This document shows positions 1-11,346 of a DNA stretch of 11,346 nucleotides, one piece after another. Location of the stretch: positions 1-11,346 of the forward strand of contig CANBUA010000143.1 of the NCBI GenBank assembly GCA_947372535.1, given 5' to 3'. This DNA is from Burkholderiales bacterium (GTDB lineage Bacteria > Pseudomonadota > Gammaproteobacteria > Burkholderiales > Burkholderiaceae). The translations under genes and the position numbers were made by a program. The notes beneath the pieces are model-generated. The model searched no databases and had not been told where the DNA came from. It worked only from the letters and a program-made list of their open reading frames with translations. Each line of letters opens with the position of its first letter. The first letter of the stretch is position 1.

Positions 1-422
1 GACAGGAAGTGGCTTTGGGCGATGTCGCAGGCGCGTGTCCAGGCCATGCAGGCATCGAGCACGTCGAAGCAATCGACCGAGTCCATGTCCAGGGCCTGGG
101 CCACGAAATAGGCATCGCCAGGTTCGATGAAGCCGCGGCAATTGCCGGCATAGATCAGCAGGTCGATGTCCTGGGGTTCGCAGCCGGCCTGGTCCATGGC
201 TCGGCGGGCGGCCTTGACCATCAGGTCGAGCGGTCGCTCGTCGTCGGCAAACCAGAATCGGTTGGTGATGCCGGTGCCCTCCATCATGCCGCTGACATAA
301 GTCAAGGCTTGATCGAGGTTGCCGTCGAAGATGGCTTCGCTGTTTTTCCTGACCTCGTCGAGCACGTCCTGGTTGCTCATTTGTCTTGAGGCCGGCAGGA
401 AGGTGATGCCGTCGATGTTCAT
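1..422 (-). CDS. FabH-like (KAS III) condensing enzyme, C-terminal part outside window
   Basis: Only the first 140 residues are in the window; the reading frame runs off at position 1. The order of segments fits KAS III. A segment ITNRFW lies near residues 52-57, followed by a helix and QDIDLLIYAGNCRG near 84-97. The putative nucleophile is Cys125 in the motif LDACMAW, matching the FabH cysteine position near residue 112. KAS III enzymes start chains by condensing an acyl-CoA with malonyl-ACP, and relatives perform acyl transfer or late condensation; which applies here cannot be told. The His and Asn of the triad would lie beyond the edge. The start ATG at 422 has no clear Shine-Dalgarno; a second ATG at 380 (Met15) is an alternative. 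It sits 55 bases after the double-dehydratase gene, with a hairpin between. The fold assignment is fairly secure; the substrate is unknown. Confidence 0.8.
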   Translation of the reverse strand, partial: MNIDGITFLPASRQMSNQDVLDEVRKNSEAIFDGNLDQALTYVSGMMEGTGITNRFWFADDERPLDLMVKAARRAMDQAGCEPQDIDLLIYAGNCRGFIEPGDAYFVAQALDMDSVDCFDVLDACMAWTRACDIAQSHFL

Positions 423-477: not shown

Positions 478-1362
478 TCAGCGCGGGTCGGTCATGGCCA
501 CCAGGCTGCCGATACGCAGGATCACCTGATCGCCCAGAAGCGCCTGACCGCTGAAGATCACGCCGTTGCTCAGCATCCGTTCGATGCGCGCCTCGACAGT
601 GAGGGCCACACCGAAAGGCAGGTCGGCCAGCAGTTCGGTCTCACCCACCGAGCCCAGCACGATGTCCATGGGTTGGCGGGTGGCCTGCGACAGGAAGAAC
701 AGCGCAATGCCGGCCTGGCCGATCGATTCGATGATCAATCCATGCGGATAGGTGGTGGGCAGGTGTTCCAGGAACAGCGGCGAAGCCCGGTTAACCACCT
801 TGGTCGCGCGCACCGATTGGCCAGGCACGTGGTCCTGGATCGAATCGATCAACAGGAAGGGGTAGCGGTGCGGCAGGATGCTGCTGAGCTCGCGGTGAGC
901 GATGGGGCGCTCACCAGGCGTTGGGGCCTGTGGCACACCGGCTTGGGCCAGGGCGCGCGAGCCCGGCGTGCAGATCAGGGTGGCGCGCGCCTTGGGCTTG
1001 TCACCCACGCGTGCCAAGGCGGAGATCTCCAGGCAATCGCTGCCCGCCTTTTTGACCGATGCGACCAGCTCGACCACATCGCCCGGCAGCACTGCATCGA
1101 GGTACTGGATGCGCTTGAGCAGGTCCACCGAGGCGGCTTGGCCAAACACCGTGAACGCCAGCTTTTCAGCCAGTTGCATCAAGCGTTCGGCGACCAGGAC
1201 GCCAGGGTAGATCGGGTTGCCCGGGTAGTGGCCCAGCGCAAAGATGTCCGTGCCGCTGACGAGCAGGTGATCGCGGATCTCCTGGACCTCGACGGCGTGC
1301 GCCAGAACGGGGACCGCAGACGCGGCGGCCACAGGTGCTTCTTGAAGGGTTGTTTCGTTCAT
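478..1362 (-). CDS. Double FabZ-like hotdog protein (fused 3-hydroxyacyl-ACP dehydratase domains)
   Basis: This 294-residue protein has two FabZ-type hotdog domains; single FabZ proteins are about half that length. Domain 1 (about residues 25-130) contains GHYPGNPIYPGVLVAE with His45 and Glu59, 14 residues apart as in FabZ, so it looks catalytically complete. Domain 2 (about 155-290) starts with the FabZ signature LPHRYPFLLID and has EHLPTTYPHGLIIESIGQAG with His200 and Glu212. These are only 12 residues apart, so two residues are missing from the active-site loop and its activity is doubtful. The expected reaction is removal of water from 3-hydroxyacyl-ACP in the cytoplasm, giving a trans-2-enoyl chain. 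The ATG at 1362 lies 6 bases after the preceding stop. One active and one altered domain parallels the active/inactive ketosynthase pairs upstream. No ketoreductase that would make its substrate is visible in the window. Confidence 0.88.
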   Translation of the reverse strand: MNETTLQEAPVAAASAVPVLAHAVEVQEIRDHLLVSGTDIFALGHYPGNPIYPGVLVAERLMQLAEKLAFTVFGQAASVDLLKRIQYLDAVLPGDVVELVASVKKAGSDCLEISALARVGDKPKARATLICTPGSRALAQAGVPQAPTPGERPIAHRELSSILPHRYPFLLIDSIQDHVPGQSVRATKVVNRASPLFLEHLPTTYPHGLIIESIGQAGIALFFLSQATRQPMDIVLGSVGETELLADLPFGVALTVEARIERMLSNGVIFSGQALLGDQVILRIGSLVAMTDPR

Positions 1363-1368
1363 GATGGG

Positions 1369-1764
1369 TTACCAGTACCAGACGCAATCGAATCGGCTGA
1401 TGAGCAAGGGCATGTCGCGCTGGCGCATGGGTTGGACGCCCGGCACCAGGACGTCGTCAGGCAGGAGGTCGGCTTCCCAGGCATAGACGGGAACGCCGCG
1501 TGTGAGCAGTTGCTCGACACTGGACTCGTAGTGGGAGATGTCGTTGACGAGCACGTCGCCAATGGACAATTCGACGCGAGGCTGGTCGCGGCGTGCGTAC
1601 AAGGTCGCATCGCCTTTGAGCAGCAGCGCGGTGTTGGCGCCCAAGGTTTGCATCACCCTTGAGAGCCAGACGATGTGCCCGTACTGCTCTTCCACGCTCC
1701 CACGATATGCCCGCTCCACGATGGCCAGCGAGCTTTTGGAGCGCACCCTCCGATGGCCGCTCAT
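1369..1764 (-). CDS. DsrF/TusC-like small protein, copy 2
   Basis: This 131-residue protein is of the DsrE/F/H type. It has an N-terminal strand SLAIVERAYRGS, a long helix (EEQYGHIVWLSRVMQTLG), then the strand-loop LLLKGDATLYA and a later strand LLTRGVPVYAWEADL. That order matches DsrF/TusC. The only cysteine is Cys127, in the C-terminal tail DCVWYW. Standard DsrF/TusC proteins are not known for a C-terminal cysteine, so this is unusual. In the family, the E, F and H subunits assemble into hexamers that pass persulfide sulfur in the cytoplasm. The ATG at 1764 overlaps the stop of the E-like gene (ATGA), implying coupled translation and probably an E-F complex. It is roughly 55-60% identical by eye to the F-like copy at 2201-2608. 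Family assignment is by pattern only. Confidence 0.78.
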   Translation of the reverse strand: MSGHRRVRSKSSLAIVERAYRGSVEEQYGHIVWLSRVMQTLGANTALLLKGDATLYARRDQPRVELSIGDVLVNDISHYESSVEQLLTRGVPVYAWEADLLPDDVLVPGVQPMRQRDMPLLISRFDCVWYW

Positions 1765-2195
1765 GACTTGACCCCGAGCACCAGCGAGACATCCGCGCTG
1801 CTGAGGTAGTGCTGGAAGGTCGCGGAGATCTTGACCTTGACCTGCTCGATCTGCTGAGTGGCGCCACGCTCTTCCATGCAGTAGCGGCAGACCAGCCAAT
1901 CGAGTTGACGGGCACCGTGGCGGCGGAACAGGGCCTGGATCAACTCGGCCGTGTTGGGGTTGAAGGCTTCCGCCTCCTTGGGCAGGAAAGAGTCCTTGGG
2001 ACGCACCAGCGTGGATTGAGACAGGCCCGTGGCGTGGCCGCAGGTCCACACCGTGACATGGTGTCCGCCGGCCAGCGCGGCATTGACCATGCGAAACAGC
2101 GAGGTGACGGTCTCGGATTGGTAGGGCGCGCCCATCATGCCGAAGAAGAAGCTGGGGGCGGGGCTTGGGCCTGGGCGTTGATCAGACGAGGTCAT
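1761..2195 (-). CDS. DsrE-like sulfur-relay protein, copy 2
   Basis: This 144-residue protein has the DrsE-family layout. The first strand SFFFGMMG (residues 15-22) is followed by helix ETVTSLFRMVNAALAGG, strand HHVTVWTCGHATG with Cys52, a variable insert, and strand-turn LDWLVCRYCMEERGA with Cys103 and Cys106. The cysteine after the third strand matches the persulfide-carrying cysteine of DsrE/TusD (Cys78 in TusD), here extended to CxxC. The expected role is a cytoplasmic sulfur acceptor or donor in an E-F complex. The ATG at 2195 follows the preceding stop by 5 bases, with GGTGAG just upstream. A GTG at 2204 overlapping that stop (GTGA) is an alternative adding three residues. The stop is fused to the start of the F-like gene. 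Compared with copy 1, it lacks the fourth cysteine and the long N-terminal extension. Confidence 0.82.
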   Translation of the reverse strand: MTSSDQRPGPSPAPSFFFGMMGAPYQSETVTSLFRMVNAALAGGHHVTVWTCGHATGLSQSTLVRPKDSFLPKEAEAFNPNTAELIQALFRRHGARQLDWLVCRYCMEERGATQQIEQVKVKISATFQHYLSSADVSLVLGVKS

Positions 2196-2200
2196 GGCGC

Positions 2201-2608
2201 TCACCAGTACCAGACGCAGTCGAGGCGGCGGATCAGGTCGATCAAGCCGGCGTTGTCCAGTGATTGCACGCCCGGCACCATGTCCTCAAGCGTCAAACCC
2301 AGGCGATCAAGGTCCCTGCCCCAGACATGCACGGGCACCTGGAGATCGAGCAGGGTCTGGATGCTGGACTCGTAATGGGACAAGGCGCTGATGTGGATGT
2401 CGCCCAGGCTCAGACCTTGGCGCGGCTGGCCCATGGTGGCGTACATGACGGTGTCGCCTTTGAGCAGGATGGACGTGGGCGCGCCCATGGCTTTCATGAT
2501 CTGGGTGAGCCAGACGATGTGGCCATATTGCTCTTCCAGGCTACCCCGGTAAGCCCGCTCCACGATGGACAGCGAGGTCTTGGAGGTGCGCAGTGGCGGC
2601 CGGCTCAT
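2201..2608 (-). CDS. DsrF/TusC-like small protein, copy 1
   Basis: This 135-residue paralogue of the gene at 1369-1764 shares the blocks IVERAYRGS, EEQYGHIVWL, ILLKGDTVMYA and SHYESSIQTLLDLQVPVHVW. It ends in the identical tail DCVWYW. Its single cysteine is Cys131, five residues from the end. The strand-helix-strand pattern fits DsrF/TusC, a non-catalytic or accessory subunit in characterised DsrEFH and TusBCD complexes. The invariant C-terminal cysteine suggests a direct part in sulfur transfer here. The ATG at 2608 overlaps the stop of the E-like gene (ATGA). Likely partner: the E-like protein immediately upstream. The assignment rests on sequence pattern only. Confidence 0.78.
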   Translation of the reverse strand: MSRPPLRTSKTSLSIVERAYRGSLEEQYGHIVWLTQIMKAMGAPTSILLKGDTVMYATMGQPRQGLSLGDIHISALSHYESSIQTLLDLQVPVHVWGRDLDRLGLTLEDMVPGVQSLDNAGLIDLIRRLDCVWYW

Positions 2609-3108
2609 GACTTGACGCCCATCACCAGACTGACCTCGGCCGCGCTCAGGTAGAACTGAAAGGTGAACGGAATCTTGACCTGTACCTCGGGGATGTGCTG
2701 AACCGCCCCGCACTCCTCCGTGCAGTAGCGGCAGACCAGCCATTGCAAGCGGTCTTTGCCGTAACGGCGGAACATCGCCTGGATCATCTCGCCGGTGTCG
2801 GGATTGAAGTCTTCACGCTCCTTGGGCGCGAAATAATCGCGCGGCCTGACCAGCGTGGTCTGCGACATCCCTGTGGCATGGCCGCAGGTCCACACCGTGA
2901 CGTCATGGCCCTGCTGCAAGGCCGACTCGGTCATGCGAAACAGGGAAGTCACGGTCTCGGTCTGCGACGGCGTGCCCACCATGCCGAAAAAGAAGCTGCG
3001 TGCTGAAGCGTCGGAGGGCTTGGCGGGCTGCGGGTGCATGGCGTCGGCCAGCAGGGCAGCACTGGCTTGGGCCGATGGTGCGTGCGTGAGGTGCGATGGA
3101 AGGTTCAC
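2605..3108 (-). CDS. DsrE-like sulfur-relay protein, copy 1
   Basis: With a GTG start this is 167 residues: an Ala/Pro-rich leader of about 37 residues, then the DrsE-type domain. Domain landmarks are SFFFGMVG, helix ETVTSLFRMTESAL, strand VTVWTCGHATG (Cys75), and LQWLVCRYCTEECGA with Cys126, Cys129 and Cys133. The CxxC lies at the position of the sulfur-binding cysteine of DsrE/TusD; the extra Cys133 is absent from copy 2. Expected role: cytoplasmic persulfide carrier, probably in complex with the F-like product whose start overlaps its stop. GTG 3108 is preferred because GGAAAG lies 7 bases upstream and it starts 16 bases after the previous stop. ATG 3039 (starting MHPQPAKP) would give a protein closer in length to copy 2. 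About 70% identical by eye to copy 2 over the domain. Confidence 0.82.
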   Translation of the reverse strand: MNLPSHLTHAPSAQASAALLADAMHPQPAKPSDASARSFFFGMVGTPSQTETVTSLFRMTESALQQGHDVTVWTCGHATGMSQTTLVRPRDYFAPKEREDFNPDTGEMIQAMFRRYGKDRLQWLVCRYCTEECGAVQHIPEVQVKIPFTFQFYLSAAEVSLVMGVKS

Positions 3109-3115
3109 GGGTCTG

Positions 3116-3121
3116 CTTTCC
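3116..3121 (-). promoter_or_regulatory. Ribosome binding site supporting the GTG start at 3108
   Basis: On the minus strand GGAAAG sits 7 bases before the GTG at 3108. The downstream ATG at 3039 has no comparable site. This is the reason for choosing the long form of the E-like protein. Confidence 0.45.
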
Positions 3122-3124
3122 GCG

Positions 3125-3454
3125 TCAGGAGTGCCAGATCGTCTTGACGGCTGGATCGGCCATCGTGGCCACCAGGTCGTCGACACCCGTGACGCTGCCG
3201 ATGTCGCGCGCCAAGGCATGCGGGATGCCGCGAAGGTCGAGCGACACGTCGTCGATGGTGATGCGCAGGGACGCGGTGAACTGCTGGCGCAAGCTCAGCA
3301 AGGCCGCGGCAGATTGGCCGCGCAGCCAGATGACCCCGTTCTGGATCAGGTGCAGGCGCACCGCCGTGCCGGCTTCCAGCAAAGCGCGCACGAGTGCAAG
3401 GAAGTCCTGCACATCACCGGCTTCCCATGGGGAATGTGTTTCGATCATGAGCAT
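3125..3454 (-). CDS. DsrE-superfamily protein without cysteine (DsrE/DsrH-like)
   Basis: With the start at 3454 the protein is 109 residues. It opens directly on a first strand MLMIETHSP, followed by helix VQDFLALVRALLEAG, strand AVRLHLIQNGVIWL, helix SAAALLSLRQQF and strand LRITIDDVSLDLRGI. This is the DsrE/TusD-type order. The segment where DsrE carries its cysteine reads IDDVSLDLRGI, and there is no cysteine in the whole protein. If the family call is right, it is probably a structural subunit or regulator instead of a sulfur carrier. ATG 3454 has GGTGAG 6 bases upstream; a longer version from ATG 3496 adds 14 residues but has no visible Shine-Dalgarno. It lies directly before the first E-like gene, so the five proteins may form an extended DsrEFH-like assembly. 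The family call is less certain than for the E/F genes. Confidence 0.65.
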   Translation of the reverse strand: MLMIETHSPWEAGDVQDFLALVRALLEAGTAVRLHLIQNGVIWLRGQSAAALLSLRQQFTASLRITIDDVSLDLRGIPHALARDIGSVTGVDDLVATMADPAVKTIWHS

Positions 3455-3460
3455 GCGCAG

Positions 3461-3466
3461 CTCACC
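3461..3466 (-). promoter_or_regulatory. Ribosome binding site supporting the start at 3454
   Basis: GGTGAG on the minus strand lies 6 bases before the ATG at 3454. This favours the short form of the cysteine-free DsrE-like protein over the ATG at 3496. Confidence 0.45.
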
Positions 3467-3534
3467 GCTGTCGCCTTCAAGGGTCTGTGGAGTCATGGCG
3501 TGTGGTCGTGTGGCAGTTCAGCAGGTGTGCGGGC

Positions 3535-5296: not shown

Positions 5297-6106
5297 TCAG
5301 GCGCACTGGGCGAGGCGGACCTCCACCGAGCAGACTTCATCAAGGAAGCGGTCGATGGCAGAGACCGTCATCTCCTGGCCATGGCTGAGCAGGAAATGGC
5401 CGCAATCGGGAAAGACCTGGAGGGCGGCGTTGGGCAAGGCTTCGACCAGCTCTAGGGCATCCGTGGGCGGTGACGAGTCGTCATCGGCACCCACCAGCGT
5501 GAGGATGGGCTGCTGAAGGCGGATCAGGGGCAGAAAAGGCGTACGGGCAAAAAGCTGCCAGAAGTGCATCCACACATAGCAACCAAAAGCATCGCGAGCC
5601 GTTTCGGTCATGCGGCGCAGTACGAGTGGATCGAGTTCGCGCTTGAGGCGCGCCTTGATGCTTTTCTCAACGAAGCCGCTGAAACGCGTGACATAGCGCT
5701 CGAACAGCGACCAGGTCACGTCTTCGTGGGAAGCCTTGTAGAAAGGCGAGATGAGCACGGCTGGCGCGTGGGCGCCTGGTCGGTCGTCCGAGGTCAGCAG
5801 GGCCAGCAAGGTGCTGGCACCAAAAGAATGGGCGATCCAGGCATCGGGTCGCAGGTCGAAGGCTTCACACGCGGCCAGCAACCAGGCTTCGGAGCGCACG
5901 TCCTGTCCCCAGAGCACGCCCTGCTGGCCGTTCCACGGCATGTCGAGCACGATGCAGCGGTAGCGCGCTTTGAGCCTGTCCACCACGGGACGCCAGACGT
6001 CCGCCGGCTCCATCATGCCGTGCACCAGCACAACCATGGGGGCACCAGCCGGGCCGTGGCAATGCGCGGTGACCTCATGGCCATGGACGCGGTGGACGAG
6101 CTTCAT
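5297..6106 (-). CDS. Alpha/beta hydrolase
   Basis: This 269-residue single-domain alpha/beta hydrolase has the oxyanion-loop motif VVLVHGMM (residues 25-32). The nucleophile elbow is AHSFGAS with Ser94, having Ala in place of the usual first Gly. The acid is in VGADDDSSPP (Asp208-210) and the catalytic His237 is in DCGHFLLSHGQE. The triad is complete and there is no signal peptide, so it acts in the cytoplasm. Enzymes of this type hydrolyse esters or thioesters, or cyclise and release acyl chains. In this operon a type II thioesterase or product-release role is plausible, alongside the hotdog protein encoded downstream. Its ATG overlaps the stop of the degenerate ketosynthase upstream (ATGA), so the two are probably co-translated. 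The fold is certain; the substrate is not identifiable. Confidence 0.88.
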   Translation of the reverse strand: MKLVHRVHGHEVTAHCHGPAGAPMVVLVHGMMEPADVWRPVVDRLKARYRCIVLDMPWNGQQGVLWGQDVRSEAWLLAACEAFDLRPDAWIAHSFGASTLLALLTSDDRPGAHAPAVLISPFYKASHEDVTWSLFERYVTRFSGFVEKSIKARLKRELDPLVLRRMTETARDAFGCYVWMHFWQLFARTPFLPLIRLQQPILTLVGADDDSSPPTDALELVEALPNAALQVFPDCGHFLLSHGQEMTVSAIDRFLDEVCSVEVRLAQCA

Positions 6107-7107
6107 GGCCGTGCCTGGCCCACGACGATGGCACCGGCGCGACGGTCCATCCAGGTGCCGCCGCCCACGATGACAGCGCCTGAACTGGTCTCATCGGCGG
6201 TCAGTTGTTCGCAGGCATGGATCAGGTGCAGCAGGCAGGCCGATCCGTAGGCTTGCCGCATCACCGCCTCCAGGTCCACCGCGGGACGAGGCGCATTGGC
6301 GCGAGACTCGACGAAGGACTGGCCAGGCACGTATTGCGCCTTGGTCGGGTGGGCATCGAACAGCTTGTAGAGGGCCGCCTGACCGGGTGCATCGGCGTGC
6401 ACGAAAACATGGTCGGAGAGGGATGCGAGCATGCGGCCACCACGTGCACTGACCGCATGGGGCGACTCCAGGATCACAGCGCCTGCGCCTTCCAGGATGG
6501 GCGATTCACCACTCATGTCATCGGGCAGGCGCTTGCCCGCCAACAGGCTGCGCAGGGCCAGGCCATCGGTCTCCACCGTGACCACCAGCATGCGGCTGGC
6601 GCGTCCGTTGCGGATCGCATTGGCCGCCAGAATGAGGGCATCGAGCGACGATGAAGCGCCCGAGCAAACCATCAGGTTGAGTGCTTTGAGACCAAAGCGG
6701 ATGGCCAATGTCGAGGCGACGATGTTGCTGGACGCATTGGGCAAGTCCATCGCGCTGGTGGCATCGACGTGTTCACGCCGGATGGTGTCGGCCGCACGAC
6801 AAACGGTGTCCAGGTTGCCGGAGTTGGAGGCCACGACCACGCCGAAGTCGGTGGCGTTCAAAGGCGTCATCTGCTCGTCGAGCAGCCCGGCGTTCATCAA
6901 CGCGGACCGGGCAGCACACAAGGCCAACAGCGTGGCGCGCTCTTTGTAGCGCAGACCCTTTTTACCGAGCTGAGGCGCTGGGTCGAACACGGGATCTGCC
7001 AAGGGCGTGCTGCTCAGGGCGCCGGCCAAGCTGGCATGTTGGGCAAAGCGTGGGATTTCCCAGCCACAGCCGGTCACGGCAATGGGCAATCGAGACACGG
7101 CGTTCAT
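6103..7107 (-). CDS. Degenerate FabF-like ketosynthase (chain-length-factor-like), second pair
   Basis: This 334-residue thiolase-fold protein is shorter than the roughly 410 of FabF. The segment IRFGLKALNLMVCSGASSSL (about residues 136-155) aligns with the nucleophile region of ketosynthases, but the catalytic Cys position holds Ala151; a Cys148 lies three residues earlier. The HGTGT motif is missing, and the usual GH(T)xGA region is reduced to AYGSACLL. The glycine-rich EGAGAVILES block is kept, as is a C-terminal GAVIVGGGTW. Loss of all catalytic residues with a kept fold is typical of chain-length factors that dimerise with an active ketosynthase. The ATG at 7107 overlaps the stop of the active ketosynthase upstream (ATGA), so these two are the likely heterodimer. 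What it controls, chain length or starter, is inference. Confidence 0.83.
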   Translation of the reverse strand: MNAVSRLPIAVTGCGWEIPRFAQHASLAGALSSTPLADPVFDPAPQLGKKGLRYKERATLLALCAARSALMNAGLLDEQMTPLNATDFGVVVASNSGNLDTVCRAADTIRREHVDATSAMDLPNASSNIVASTLAIRFGLKALNLMVCSGASSSLDALILAANAIRNGRASRMLVVTVETDGLALRSLLAGKRLPDDMSGESPILEGAGAVILESPHAVSARGGRMLASLSDHVFVHADAPGQAALYKLFDAHPTKAQYVPGQSFVESRANAPRPAVDLEAVMRQAYGSACLLHLIHACEQLTADETSSGAVIVGGGTWMDRRAGAIVVGQARP

Positions 7108-8252
7108 GCTGCTTTCTCCACGATGACGACGGCGTTGACGCCGCCAAAACCAAAGGCATTGACCTGCGCGAAACGCGCGTTGGGCAGCAACCTGGCCGCG
7201 CCCGTCACGATGTCCATGGACGCGGCTTCTGCCATGGGATGGCTCAGGCCAACCGTGGGCGGCAAAAGCCCTGTATTCAGGGATTCAATGGCCGTCACCA
7301 CCGCCAACAGGCCGGAGGCGCCGGAGGTGTGGCCGGTCATCGACTTCAGGGCTGACACCGGCACCCAGTTGGCGGCCGGGCCCATGGCCTCTTGCAAGGC
7401 AATCGCCTCGGTCTTGTCGTTGAGCATGGTGCCGGTGCCGTGCACCATGAGCAGGTCCACGTCGTCGGCCGTGACGGCACCACGCGCATAGGCATCCTGG
7501 ATGGCGCGGACGATGCCACCCGTGTCCGGCGCGGTCTCGTGGTTGGCGTCGCAGCTGGTGCCCACGGCGCGCAGCACGGCCAGCGGCTGGACCTGCCGGG
7601 CCGCGGCATGGGCCCGGGTCTCGACCACCACTGCCGCAGCACCATCGCCCATCAGCACGCCCTTGCGGTCACGCTCGAAAGGCTGCACGGTGTCGGGGTG
7701 CAAGGGGTTGACGCGGTCCAGCAGGCCGAACATGCTTTCCGTGATGGTGTCGCAGCCGCCCACGATGACGCAGTCGAAGGTGCCATCGCGGATGAAGTCC
7801 TCGGCCAGGGCCAACGCAAAGTTCGACGCCGAGCAGGCATTGGACACCGTGATCACGGGCAGGGCCGTGCCCAGCCTGTCGTTCAGCACGCGCTCGAAAT
7901 GGAGCTGGTCCAGTGACAAGGGTTGCTCTTCGGTCCAGAACAGTTCGAGCGAGCGCAACTCACGCAGGCCGGTGCCCACCACCACGCCGCAGCGGCCGGT
8001 GTCCAGCGGCAGCTTGGCTTCTTTGACGGCATCGGCCACGGCTTGGGCCAGCAGTTCGCTGGCGCGCAAGACACGGTCGCGTCCCTGGGGTCGGTCGGCG
8101 ATCTCGTAGGCGTACGACACGTTGAACTTGTCGGCCGGGAAAGACTGGAGCGGCTTGCGGCCGGACTCGCCGGCGCACATGGCCTGGAAGCCGAGCAGCT
8201 TGTCCGGGCCGACGCTGCTCACCATGGCAGAGGCAGAAATCACGAGGTTCAT
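7104..8252 (-). CDS. FabF-like beta-ketoacyl-ACP synthase, active, second pair
   Basis: This 382-residue ketosynthase has a complete active site: Cys140 in SNACSAS, His271 in HGTGTMLND, and Lys303 and His308 in LKSMTGHTSGAS. Landmarks MGDGAAAVVVE and the C-terminal FGFGGVNAVVIVE are also present. It should catalyse decarboxylative Claisen condensation of malonyl-ACP with an acyl chain. The ATG at 8252 starts the first strand (MNLVISASAM) and lies 31 bases after the upstream stop; an in-frame extension to 8324 would overlap the previous gene and adds nothing family-like. Its stop overlaps the start of the degenerate ketosynthase downstream (ATGA), as in type II polyketide KS-alpha/KS-beta pairs. 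The family is certain; polyketide versus fatty-acid-like use is inferred from context. Confidence 0.92.
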   Translation of the reverse strand: MNLVISASAMVSSVGPDKLLGFQAMCAGESGRKPLQSFPADKFNVSYAYEIADRPQGRDRVLRASELLAQAVADAVKEAKLPLDTGRCGVVVGTGLRELRSLELFWTEEQPLSLDQLHFERVLNDRLGTALPVITVSNACSASNFALALAEDFIRDGTFDCVIVGGCDTITESMFGLLDRVNPLHPDTVQPFERDRKGVLMGDGAAAVVVETRAHAAARQVQPLAVLRAVGTSCDANHETAPDTGGIVRAIQDAYARGAVTADDVDLLMVHGTGTMLNDKTEAIALQEAMGPAANWVPVSALKSMTGHTSGASGLLAVVTAIESLNTGLLPPTVGLSHPMAEAASMDIVTGAARLLPNARFAQVNAFGFGGVNAVVIVEKAA

Positions 8253-9417: not shown

Positions 9418-10623
9418 TCACTGGGTGTAGCGGGCGTAGACCGTGATGGCGTTGTTGCCGCCAAACGCGAATCCGTTGTTCTGCACGATGCGCAGGTCCG
9501 CCTGACGGGACGCGTTGGGCACGCAGTCCACTTTGCAGCGCGGATCGGTCTCGACGTGGTTGATCGTCGGCGGCATGAAGCCCTCTTCAATCGCCACGGC
9601 GCAGGCGATGCTGGCCAGCGCGCTGGCCGCGCCCATGGTGTGGCCGATCATCGATTTGATCGAGGACACGGGCGGTTTGCTTTCGCCGAAGACTTCATCA
9701 ATGGCGCCCGACTCGGTGATGTCGTTGGCCACTGTGCCGGTGCCGTGCGCGCAGATGTAGTCCACATCGGCCGCCGTGATGCCGGCGTTCTGGTGAGCCA
9801 GGCGGATGCAGCGGGCGATGCTGGCGCGATTGGGCGCGACCATGTGGTCGGCATCGCAGGTCAGGCCGTAGCCCAGCACCTCGGCATAGATGTGAGCGCC
9901 GCGTGCCAGGGCGCTGTCGAGCGACTCCAGCAACATGATGCCCGCGCCCTCACCCGTCAGGATGCCCTTGCGCTCCTTGTCGAAGGGCTGGCAGACATCG
10001 GGGGCGATCGTGCCCAGGCGGTAAAAGCCAGCGAAGGTCTTGCGGCAGATCGAATCGGCCCCGCCGCACAGCATGAAGTCCGTGTCACCCACGGCCACGC
10101 TGTCATACGCATAGCCGATGGCGTAGTTGCCGGCCGAGCAAGCCGTGGGGATGGTGATCGCCCCGCCTTGCAAGCCCAGCTCGCGCGCCACCGCAAAAGA
10201 GATGTGGTGCGAGGGCACCTGGCGGAGCAAGTCGTACGAGATCGAGCCATAGCCACCCCGCACTGCCTGCTCCGTCAGTTTGTCGATCACCTGGGACTCG
10301 CCGTCCGTGGTGCCGATCGAGACCCCGCAACGCCCTTCTGACAATTGCGTAGGGTCCATGCCTGAATCCTGGAGCGCCATGGCCGCAGCGGCCACCGCGA
10401 ACTGGGCGCTGCGGCCCAGCGAAGCGGGATCGACGCGGTGGATCCACTGCTCGGGGTCGAAGCCTCGTACTTCGCACCCACGGTTGGTGGCAAAACCCGT
10501 GGTGTCGAAGGACGTGATCTCCGAGACCCCGCATACCCCGTCACGCATGGCTTGGCCGAACGCCTTCACGCCGAGGCCGACACTGGTGACCGCGCCTATT
10601 CCTGTGATGACCACTCGTCGCAT
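9418..10623 (-). CDS. FabF-like beta-ketoacyl-ACP synthase, active, first pair
   Basis: This 401-residue protein is of standard FabF length. It starts with MRRVVITGIGAVTSVG and has Cys162 in PTACSAGNYA, His293 in CAHGTGTVAND, and Lys323 and His328 in SIKSMIGHTMGAAS. The C-terminal FAFGGNNAITVYAR is also typical. All four FabF active-site residues are present (Cys163, His303, Lys335 and His340 in E. coli FabF). It elongates ACP-bound chains with malonyl-ACP in the cytoplasm. The ATG at 10623 is preceded by GGGAG at a good spacing and lies 28 bases after the ACP gene, its probable carrier. The PNR segment and overall look place it near specialised KS sets rather than housekeeping FabF, but a housekeeping origin cannot be excluded from sequence alone. 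Confidence 0.93.
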   Translation of the reverse strand: MRRVVITGIGAVTSVGLGVKAFGQAMRDGVCGVSEITSFDTTGFATNRGCEVRGFDPEQWIHRVDPASLGRSAQFAVAAAAMALQDSGMDPTQLSEGRCGVSIGTTDGESQVIDKLTEQAVRGGYGSISYDLLRQVPSHHISFAVARELGLQGGAITIPTACSAGNYAIGYAYDSVAVGDTDFMLCGGADSICRKTFAGFYRLGTIAPDVCQPFDKERKGILTGEGAGIMLLESLDSALARGAHIYAEVLGYGLTCDADHMVAPNRASIARCIRLAHQNAGITAADVDYICAHGTGTVANDITESGAIDEVFGESKPPVSSIKSMIGHTMGAASALASIACAVAIEEGFMPPTINHVETDPRCKVDCVPNASRQADLRIVQNNGFAFGGNNAITVYARYTQ

Positions 10624-10651: not shown

Positions 10652-10915
10652 TCACTCGCGCCAGCCGGCGGCTTCCTGCACGACCTCGTAGACGCCCAGC
10701 AGGTTGACCATGCGGGTCAAGGCCTCTTGCGGGATCTCGACACCGAAGGTCTTTTCCAGGCTGGCCAGGATCTCGATGGCGCGCAGCGAATCGGCGTCAT
10801 GCTCCTCCTTGAAGAGGCTGGTGGGCGTCATGTCGTTCGGTTCGATTTCCAGGATGTCCGAGACGATTTGCTTGATCAGCGCGCTGCGCTCTTCGGTGGT
10901 GACGGCGGTGTTCAT
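10652..10915 (-). CDS. Acyl carrier protein
   Basis: This 87-residue acidic ACP has the phosphopantetheine attachment serine at Ser43 in DADSLRAIEI, followed by a helix II that begins LRAIEILASLEKTFG and then the VEIPQEALTRM segment. Length and motif are normal for type II systems. The ending EAAGWRE includes a Trp not usual in AcpP, suggesting a pathway-specific carrier. It carries the growing chain between the ketosynthases and the dehydratase/thioesterase proteins encoded downstream. The ATG at 10915 has AAGGAA 9 bases upstream. An in-frame TTG at 10939 would overlap the previous gene and add residues with no family match, so it was not used. Confidence 0.92.
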   Translation of the reverse strand: MNTAVTTEERSALIKQIVSDILEIEPNDMTPTSLFKEEHDADSLRAIEILASLEKTFGVEIPQEALTRMVNLLGVYEVVQEAAGWRE

Positions 10916-10935: not shown

Positions 10936-11346
10936 TCAAAGTGAGGTTGGGGAGAAAAGAAACGCCAGATGGCGGCGTTGATGGATCGCCAGCAGCAATA
11001 CCGGGCGAGGAGAGGTCAGGCAGCGCACGACCTGCAACATGGGCGCCACCGTGCCCACGGTGGCAAAGACGGTGTCAGGCGATGACGGATTGGCGATGTC
11101 ACTGGCGCCCAGCCAGTCACGCCAGCGCATGGCGATCGCCGCGGACAAGGCATCCTGGGTTCGCAGCACGGCCAGTTGAAGGTCATGGCGACGTGCACCC
11201 AGGGCGCTTGGCAGGCCAGCGATGAAGCGCTGCGTCGTCCGGGACGGCGCGATGGCGTCCTTGTCGACATGGCCCCAGCACGATGCAGCGATGCGCTGAC
11301 CACCAGCAACGGTGGCGCTCGATTGCAGGTGCAATGCCACAGCGCC
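10936..11346 (-). CDS. Probable degenerate ketosynthase, C-terminal part (5' end outside window)
   Basis: An open frame with strongly GC-biased third codon positions enters from the right edge and stops at 10936. No convincing start lies inside; the GTG at 11340 has no binding site, so the 136 visible residues are read as a C-terminal fragment of a longer protein. Aligned by eye to FabF-type proteins, GGQRIAASCWGHVDKDAIAP matches the segment after the glycine turn (RGAHIYAEVLGYG...DA...AP). GARRHDLQLAVLRTQDALSA matches the HGTGT region without its histidine, and VFATVGTVAPMLQVV takes the place of KSMIGHTMGAAS. If right, this is a third non-catalytic ketosynthase-like subunit. The similarity is weak and another protein type remains possible. 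It is 20 bases upstream of the ACP gene. Confidence 0.5.
   Translation of the reverse strand, partial: GAVALHLQSSATVAGGQRIAASCWGHVDKDAIAPSRTTQRFIAGLPSALGARRHDLQLAVLRTQDALSAAIAMRWRDWLGASDIANPSSPDTVFATVGTVAPMLQVVRCLTSPRPVLLLAIHQRRHLAFLFSPTSL

Follow-up and report, generated by a model that had tools for sequence, protein, structure and literature searches.

Five DsrE-type genes in a Burkholderiales type II polyketide synthase operon: a probable variant of the Kcn17-Kcn18-Kcn19 cyclase

Introduction

In a passage of PMC9321520 that cites earlier work, Kcn17-Kcn18-Kcn19 of the kitacinnamycin (kcn) cluster and YssX, the different cyclase used for youssoufene, are credited with catalyzing a 6pi-electrocyclic closure that gives a benzene ring. 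According to passages of PMC9381841, the synthases for youssoufene, skyllamycin, WS9326A, and globisporamic acid have two or three pairs of ketosynthase (KS) and chain-length factor (CLF), a cis-trans isomerase, and no enoyl reductase, as do the clusters considered here. DsrEFH of Allochromatium vinosum and TusBCD of Escherichia coli belong to a well-known sulfurtransferase family, in which Cys78 of DsrE/TusD is a proven sulfur carrier and, in E. coli, the only cysteine required for transfer (passages of PMC3397948). Here we describe five consecutive DsrE-type genes within a type II polyketide synthase (PKS) operon of a Burkholderiales bacterium (contig CANBUA010000143.1, assembly GCA_947372535.1); the whole stretch analyzed, 11,346 nucleotides, is called the window below.

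We consider it probable (about 0.76) that the encoded DsrE-fold complex is a ring-closing cyclase derived from a DsrEFH/TusBCD-like sulfurtransferase, with the relay cysteine retained in an invariant CxxC motif. The fold, the three-subunit plan, the conservation, the co-occurrence, and the gene-order match to kcn17-19 were computed here, and the cyclase activity of Kcn17-Kcn18-Kcn19 is taken from print, that is, from the one passage of PMC9321520, a secondary paper. We would class the set as a five-gene variant of a cyclase type that is in print but has attracted little notice.

Results and discussion

The five DsrE-type genes

The genes follow an a-b-c triad plan in which the b-c pair is duplicated, which is a five-gene variant of the triad:

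3125..3496, minus strand: D1, subunit a; DsrE fold, zero cysteines, C-terminus IWHS
2605..3108, minus strand: D2, the diverged second copy of subunit b; DsrE/TusD-like, with CRYC at 2722-2733; Pfam DsrE 8.6e-4, under the cut-off; start uncertain, the open frame extending to 3219
2201..2608, minus strand: D3, subunit c; DsrH/TusB-like; PDB 2hy5_C (DsrH) E 9.8e-4, DsrH and TIGR03011 models weak, under the cut-off
1761..2204, minus strand: D4, subunit b; DsrE/TusD-like, CRYC at 1878-1889, EERG
1369..1764, minus strand: D5, the second copy of subunit c; 55% identity with D3, unmatched in Pfam

The fold search assigns the DsrE fold to D1 and D4, and D3 resembles DsrH. An earlier note, made from the letters of this DNA, had read these as DsrE/F/H-type genes, and the fold search and the likeness of D3 bear it out, with profile matches under the cut-off for D2 and D3 and missing for D5. 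Compared with the PDB by sequence, the b subunit found no relative, whereas the fold search did give relatives.

The likeness to DsrEFH and TusBCD lies in the fold of D1 and D4, the DsrH-like D3, the three-subunit plan, and the relay cysteine of b. The window proteins differ in having CxxC where the sulfurtransferases have a single cysteine, in their PKS context, and in having relatives without DsrC/TusE. They also have no cysteine at the site of DsrH Cys20, which has little weight because Cys20, required in vivo in A. vinosum, is dispensable for transfer in vitro (passages of PMC3397948) and because E. coli TusB has no cysteine at all; as an argument against sulfur delivery, this absence was withdrawn. 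The type II DsrEFH of cable bacteria and others is likewise a diverged heterotrimer with a conserved b cysteine that was missed by sequence-based annotation, but it has YeeE/YedE and TusA neighbors and often DsrAB; this comparison is by description only, from parts of PMC13293266.

We aligned 185 b sequences, namely, D2, D4, the b protein of a Paraburkholderia fungorum plasmid described below, and 182 listed proteins, a set that includes the two window proteins again. The pair Cys106 and Cys109 is conserved in 184 of the 185, the exception being a short fragment (P0061), and W and G positions are near-invariant together with the CxxC motif. Cys106 of D4 aligns, in a sequence alignment only, with the relay cysteine of TusD (the DsrE/TusD Cys78 site), and E. 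coli TusD and TusC have no counterpart of Cys109. The c subunits D3 and D5 have one cysteine each, at 131 and 127, respectively. The D2-type b proteins form a clade of six members (support, 100/99), in five of which a cysteine replaces the conserved arginine of the EERG that follows CxxC (CRYC-EECG), giving a third cysteine beside that motif.

Gene-order match to the kitacinnamycin cluster

Kcn17-Kcn18-Kcn19, like the window triad, are three small proteins together, and their places in G148, a Streptomycetaceae genome, lie beside the same 12-gene type II PKS block. That block encodes an acyl carrier protein (ACP), KS, KS, a CLF-like protein, a hydrolase, a hotdog protein, a CLF-like protein, ACP, two dehydratases (DH), a ketoreductase (KR), and the isomerase. 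It is followed by an AarF gene, by c, b, and a on the other strand, by an open reading frame (ORF), three nonribosomal peptide synthetase (NRPS) genes, and another ORF, and farther on by genes for an ATP-binding cassette (ABC) ATPase, an ABC permease, a cytochrome P450, and a glycosyltransferase. Outside the main PKS block, close to the position expected for kcn33, is a second gene for a DsbA-type isomerase (6337877-6338479).

Kcn4 is named as an ACP in PMC9321520, and passages of PMC6510318 give kcn4-15 plus kcn33 as the PKS set, kcn7 as KS, kcn14 as KR, Kcn21-23 as three NRPSs with nine modules, Kcn27 as a P450, and Kcn28 as a glycosyltransferase. Counting the ACP of G148 as 4 puts the KR at 14, the triad at 17 to 19, the NRPSs at 21 to 23, the P450 at 27, and the glycosyltransferase at 28; the triad is assigned to places 17 to 19 because this order fits the published anchors. 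The G148 NRPSs have 4+1+4 adenylation motifs of the A3 type and of the A7 type, set beside the nine modules published. The window triad is homologous to the genes at G148 places 17 to 19. We infer that kcn17-19 are a triad of the window type and that the window copy performs the same ring closure as Kcn17-19, which rests on gene places.

The window differs from Kcn17-Kcn18-Kcn19 in having five genes, with the duplicated b-c pair, and in its surroundings: NRPS-type matches were found in none of four Burkholderiales regions of 40 to 60 kb, and a fifth gave one weak match to an adenylation enzyme. By BLAST, the window subunits are 27 to 43% identical to the actinomycete ones.

Distribution and linkage to type II synthases

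Two peptide patterns, run against genome contigs, picked out eight loci, in Cupriavidus basilensis, Cupriavidus campinensis, Paraburkholderia dilworthii, Collimonas humicola, Janthinobacterium fluminis, Monaibacterium marinum, Actinocrinis puniceicyclus, and Streptomyces niphimycinicus. The triad thus occurs in cinnamoyl-lipid-type synthase clusters of Burkholderiales, one alphaproteobacterium, and actinomycetes, and in all eight loci it is surrounded by relatives of the window's KS, ACP, CLF, or dehydratase. The trait is rare in a Burkholderiales draw (1/399 genomes, that one being the center genome of the draw) and commoner in Streptomycetaceae, where b was found in 36 of 394 genomes. Of 38 places in the latter, 30 were inspected (two of them, G008 and G322, repeat the known loci L008 and L009), and every one has a-b-c in order; a PKS gene lies inside the fetched 2.6 to 3.4 kb at 28. 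The remaining two are G148, whose PKS block lies ~2.4 kb off, and a contig of 4.2 kb that carries pieces of NRPS and P450 genes. In Monaibacterium (L006 with flanks, ~15055-18950) the triad is split: a adjoins b, and c follows about 3 kb away, past an AarF-like stretch.

Ten plasmid records also matched, and of the four opened, three are from Streptomyces, with the triad in PKS-NRPS clusters, and one is from P. fungorum. In two of the Streptomyces plasmids (L010 and L011) the order is ACP, KS, KS, CLF-like protein, hydrolase, hotdog protein, a, b, c, CLF-like protein, ACP, DH, DH, KR, DsbA protein, and NRPS genes. This is nearly the order of the window, in which CLF-like 1 is next to KS1 and the DsbA gene precedes the triad. 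In NBC_01431 the triad does not adjoin the 12 PKS genes; it is found on the far side of the NRPS genes, together with a KS-like gene and a flavoprotein gene. On the P. fungorum plasmid pBIL (L012, 17636-18775), a distant a-b-c triad neighbors a gene for a metal-transporting ATPase, within a region of resistance to metals and mercury. When b of the P. fungorum type was sought in 349 Pseudomonadota genomes, only the center genome matched, through its PKS triad.

Relatives of the isomerase (E below 1e-20) occur in 80 of the 394 Streptomycetaceae genomes, and 35 genomes have both isomerase and b, against 7.3 expected (Fisher p, 1.3e-26, at the genome level, with genomes treated as independent though they are kin). 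The link of the triad to the synthase, which the earlier note had drawn from one operon, is therefore real and conserved, holding at 8/8 loci and in the 35 of 36 triad genomes that carry the isomerase.

Alternative readings and points against the cyclase

The earlier note had further proposed delivery of sulfur to a chain on the ACP, with a thio-lipid or thio-polyketide as the result; the complex would carry the sulfur as a persulfide on Cys106 of b. The DsrE fold, the DsrEFH-like three-subunit plan, and the invariant Cys106 at the site of the proven carrier Cys78 speak for this, and so does TusA, a possible donor, which is present in one copy in each of ten genomes of triad-bearing relatives (and in 11 of 14 controls). 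TusA is never near the triad, however, lying on another contig in eight of the ten and ~120 kb and 4 Mb away in the other two. DsrC/TusE, the usual sulfur acceptor, was found in none of the ten, and E. coli alone was positive among the 14 controls. Among 19 flanking proteins sent to Pfam, none belongs to a sulfur-transfer family, with cysteine desulfurases and rhodaneses unsearched and some flanks unscanned. Sulfur delivery lost ground because of the report on Kcn17-19, whose role in print is ring closure, the absence of DsrC/TusE, the co-occurrence with the isomerase, and the order in G148, and we now regard it as unlikely. Some sulfur chemistry at the relay cysteine itself is conceivable. 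Of the earlier reading, the protein family, the operon, and the tie to the synthase thus stand, and sulfur in the product is most likely wrong.

A role for the CxxC of b as a dithiol/disulfide pair that oxidizes a cyclohexadiene to benzene, alone or along with closure, would account for the invariance of Cys109, and a flavin oxidoreductase like the one next to the L009 triad was not found in 7/7 loci of extended relatives (single flavoprotein query). The oxidation could, however, be spontaneous or be carried out by an enzyme encoded elsewhere; the P. fungorum triad has CxxC outside a PKS setting too, and the kcn passage of PMC9321520 mentions ring closure alone. Such a thiol-redox aromatase seems improbable. 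An accessory role, in which the complex would lack chemistry of its own and act as scaffold, chaperone, or isomerase partner, is harder still to credit. The tight co-occurrence with the isomerase and the one cysteine-free subunit would suit that role, but the near-invariant W, CxxC, and G positions of b argue against it, and the same passage credits the three proteins with catalyzing the closure.

Several observations count against the ring-closing cyclase, in addition to the presence of TusA. The match to kcn is one of order and count from our own ORF calls, and parts of it fit less well: other counts of NRPS motifs give 3+1+4 (A5 type) and 3+0+4 (a stricter A3 pattern), kcn7 is printed as a KS while G148 has a CLF-like protein at place 7, and place 33 hinges on a 1.2-kb gap with no called gene. 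The published cluster spans ~55 kb with 41 ORFs (passages of PMC6510318), and G148 has ~25 genes in the ~54.5 kb from ACP to glycosyltransferase. The P. fungorum triad has no PKS gene in its 33.7-kb gene table, which is possibly incomplete, and yet its b has CxxC. The window b is only 34 to 45% identical to actinomycete b proteins, and its function may therefore have drifted. As far as we know, no product has been assigned to a triad-bearing Gram-negative cluster. Finally, 45 of the 80 isomerase genomes have no triad, and a benzene-bearing product comes from a cluster without Kcn17-19 homologues (a passage of PMC9321520); the triad is therefore not the sole route. Isomerase genomes without it are expected if other cyclases exist.

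Proposed mechanism

In the cyclase reading, the KS/CLF pairs, a ketoreductase, and dehydratases would build an ACP-bound polyene, into which the DsbA-fold isomerase would introduce a cis double bond. The a-b-c complex would then hold the polyene and promote 6pi-electrocyclic closure to a cyclohexadiene, and oxidation of this would give an ortho-substituted benzene. The duplicated b-c pair may supply the window complex with two catalytic subunits. That the cysteines take part in ring closure at all is a guess. A more specific version, which we hold as doubtful, makes the former sulfur-relay heterohexamer a pericyclase with covalent catalysis: addition of Cys106 would let the polyenoyl-ACP reach its reactive conformation, and the dithiol/disulfide pair would accept two electrons, aromatizing the ring; D4 with EERG and D2 with EECG would then be two different catalytic subunits, perhaps one per ring size, chain length, or step. 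In relatives, an additional (third) KS/CLF pair and a FabD-like protein, along with an MMPL exporter and a LolA-like protein, suggest that a ring-bearing lipid may be extended and moved to the envelope.

Synthase genes and neighbors

The window genes are a single co-directional run on the minus strand. In reading order they encode the end of a third KS-like protein, ACP, KS1, CLF-like 1, KS2, CLF-like 2, an alpha/beta hydrolase, a double-hotdog protein, a DsbA-fold protein, the five DsrE-type proteins, a double-hotdog dehydratase, and the start of a ketosynthase III-like protein. This gene content confirms the operon with a type II synthase that had been described from the sequence. The features other than the DsrE-type genes are as follows:

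10936..11346, minus strand: third KS-like/CLF-like protein, C-terminal part, cut by the window end; 42% to the KS-like protein of L001 (PF00109 match), no Pfam ketosynthase match of its own
10652..10915, minus strand: acyl carrier protein; PF00550 3.8e-11
9418..10623, minus strand: ketosynthase 1, with Cys-His-His motifs; 62% to L010
8284..9390, minus strand: KS-like, without Cys-His-His motifs (CLF-like, pair 1)
7104..8252, minus strand: ketosynthase 2, with Cys-His-His motifs
6103..7107, minus strand: KS-like, without Cys-His-His motifs (CLF-like, pair 2)
5297..6106, minus strand: alpha/beta hydrolase, kept in the clusters; PF00561 1.7e-16; 31% to L010
4239..5237, minus strand: double-hotdog thioesterase-like protein, kept in the clusters; PF13279 1.8e-7; 53% to L010
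3535..4230, minus strand: DsbA-fold protein, counterpart of the cinnamoyl-lipid cis-trans isomerase; PF01323 1.4e-15; 46% to the L010 DsbA protein
478..1362, minus strand: double-hotdog FabA/FabZ-like dehydratase; FabA 4.9e-13; FabZ models 4.1e-31 and 1.1e-29, under their cut-offs
3..422, minus strand: ketosynthase III-like protein, truncated at the window end; KS III models 1.1e-16 and weaker, under their cut-offs

The DsbA-fold protein is, by analogy to YsfG (passages of PMC9381841), the putative cis-trans isomerase. The low scores of the ketosynthase III-like protein are what a fragment would be expected to give; its identity to the corresponding protein is 69 to 79% in four loci of Burkholderiales and 55% in Monaibacterium. 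The traits of a cinnamoyl-lipid-type highly reducing type II PKS that are present are the KS/CLF pairs, the ACP, the dehydratase, and the DsbA-fold putative isomerase, and a third KS/CLF pair and a FabD-like protein are visible in relatives. The window has no ketoreductase; a short-chain dehydrogenase/reductase of the same family is common to five of seven extended relatives (Pfam was run on two).

An AarF/UbiB-family gene lies alongside many clusters: in four of seven extended loci by tblastn, and also in NBC_01431, NBC_00048, and G148 (coordinates: L009, 26402-28315; L015, 7775-9733; G148, 6288526-6290472). That of C. basilensis is fused to a class III aminotransferase domain, and a protein of similar length in C. 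campinensis is 74% identical to it. By BLAST, five of the seven extended clusters share an MMPL-type exporter gene with a LolA-like gene after it (Pfam was run on the C. basilensis pair), at 15921-19162 in L001 and with homologues in L003, L005, L006, and the Janthinobacterium region; these genes hint that the product is exported to the envelope.

Significance

In the titles and abstract starts of matching open PMC papers, a DsrE-type polyketide cyclase is undescribed, as is a sulfurtransferase descent of such a cyclase in open PMC papers, among the matches listed; passages of PMC13311259 (which cites the kcn paper), PMC8358021, PMC10698177, and PMC12664062 do not mention the triad. If the cyclase reading is true, annotation as a sulfur relay (TusD component), which 8 of 62 listed entries carry, can mislead. 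Such synthases would then extend to Burkholderiales and an alphaproteobacterium, the CxxC motif would be the site to probe, and a cyclase that forms a benzene ring through a pericyclic reaction would be linked to a well-known sulfurtransferase family, with DsrEFH/TusBCD as the structural template.

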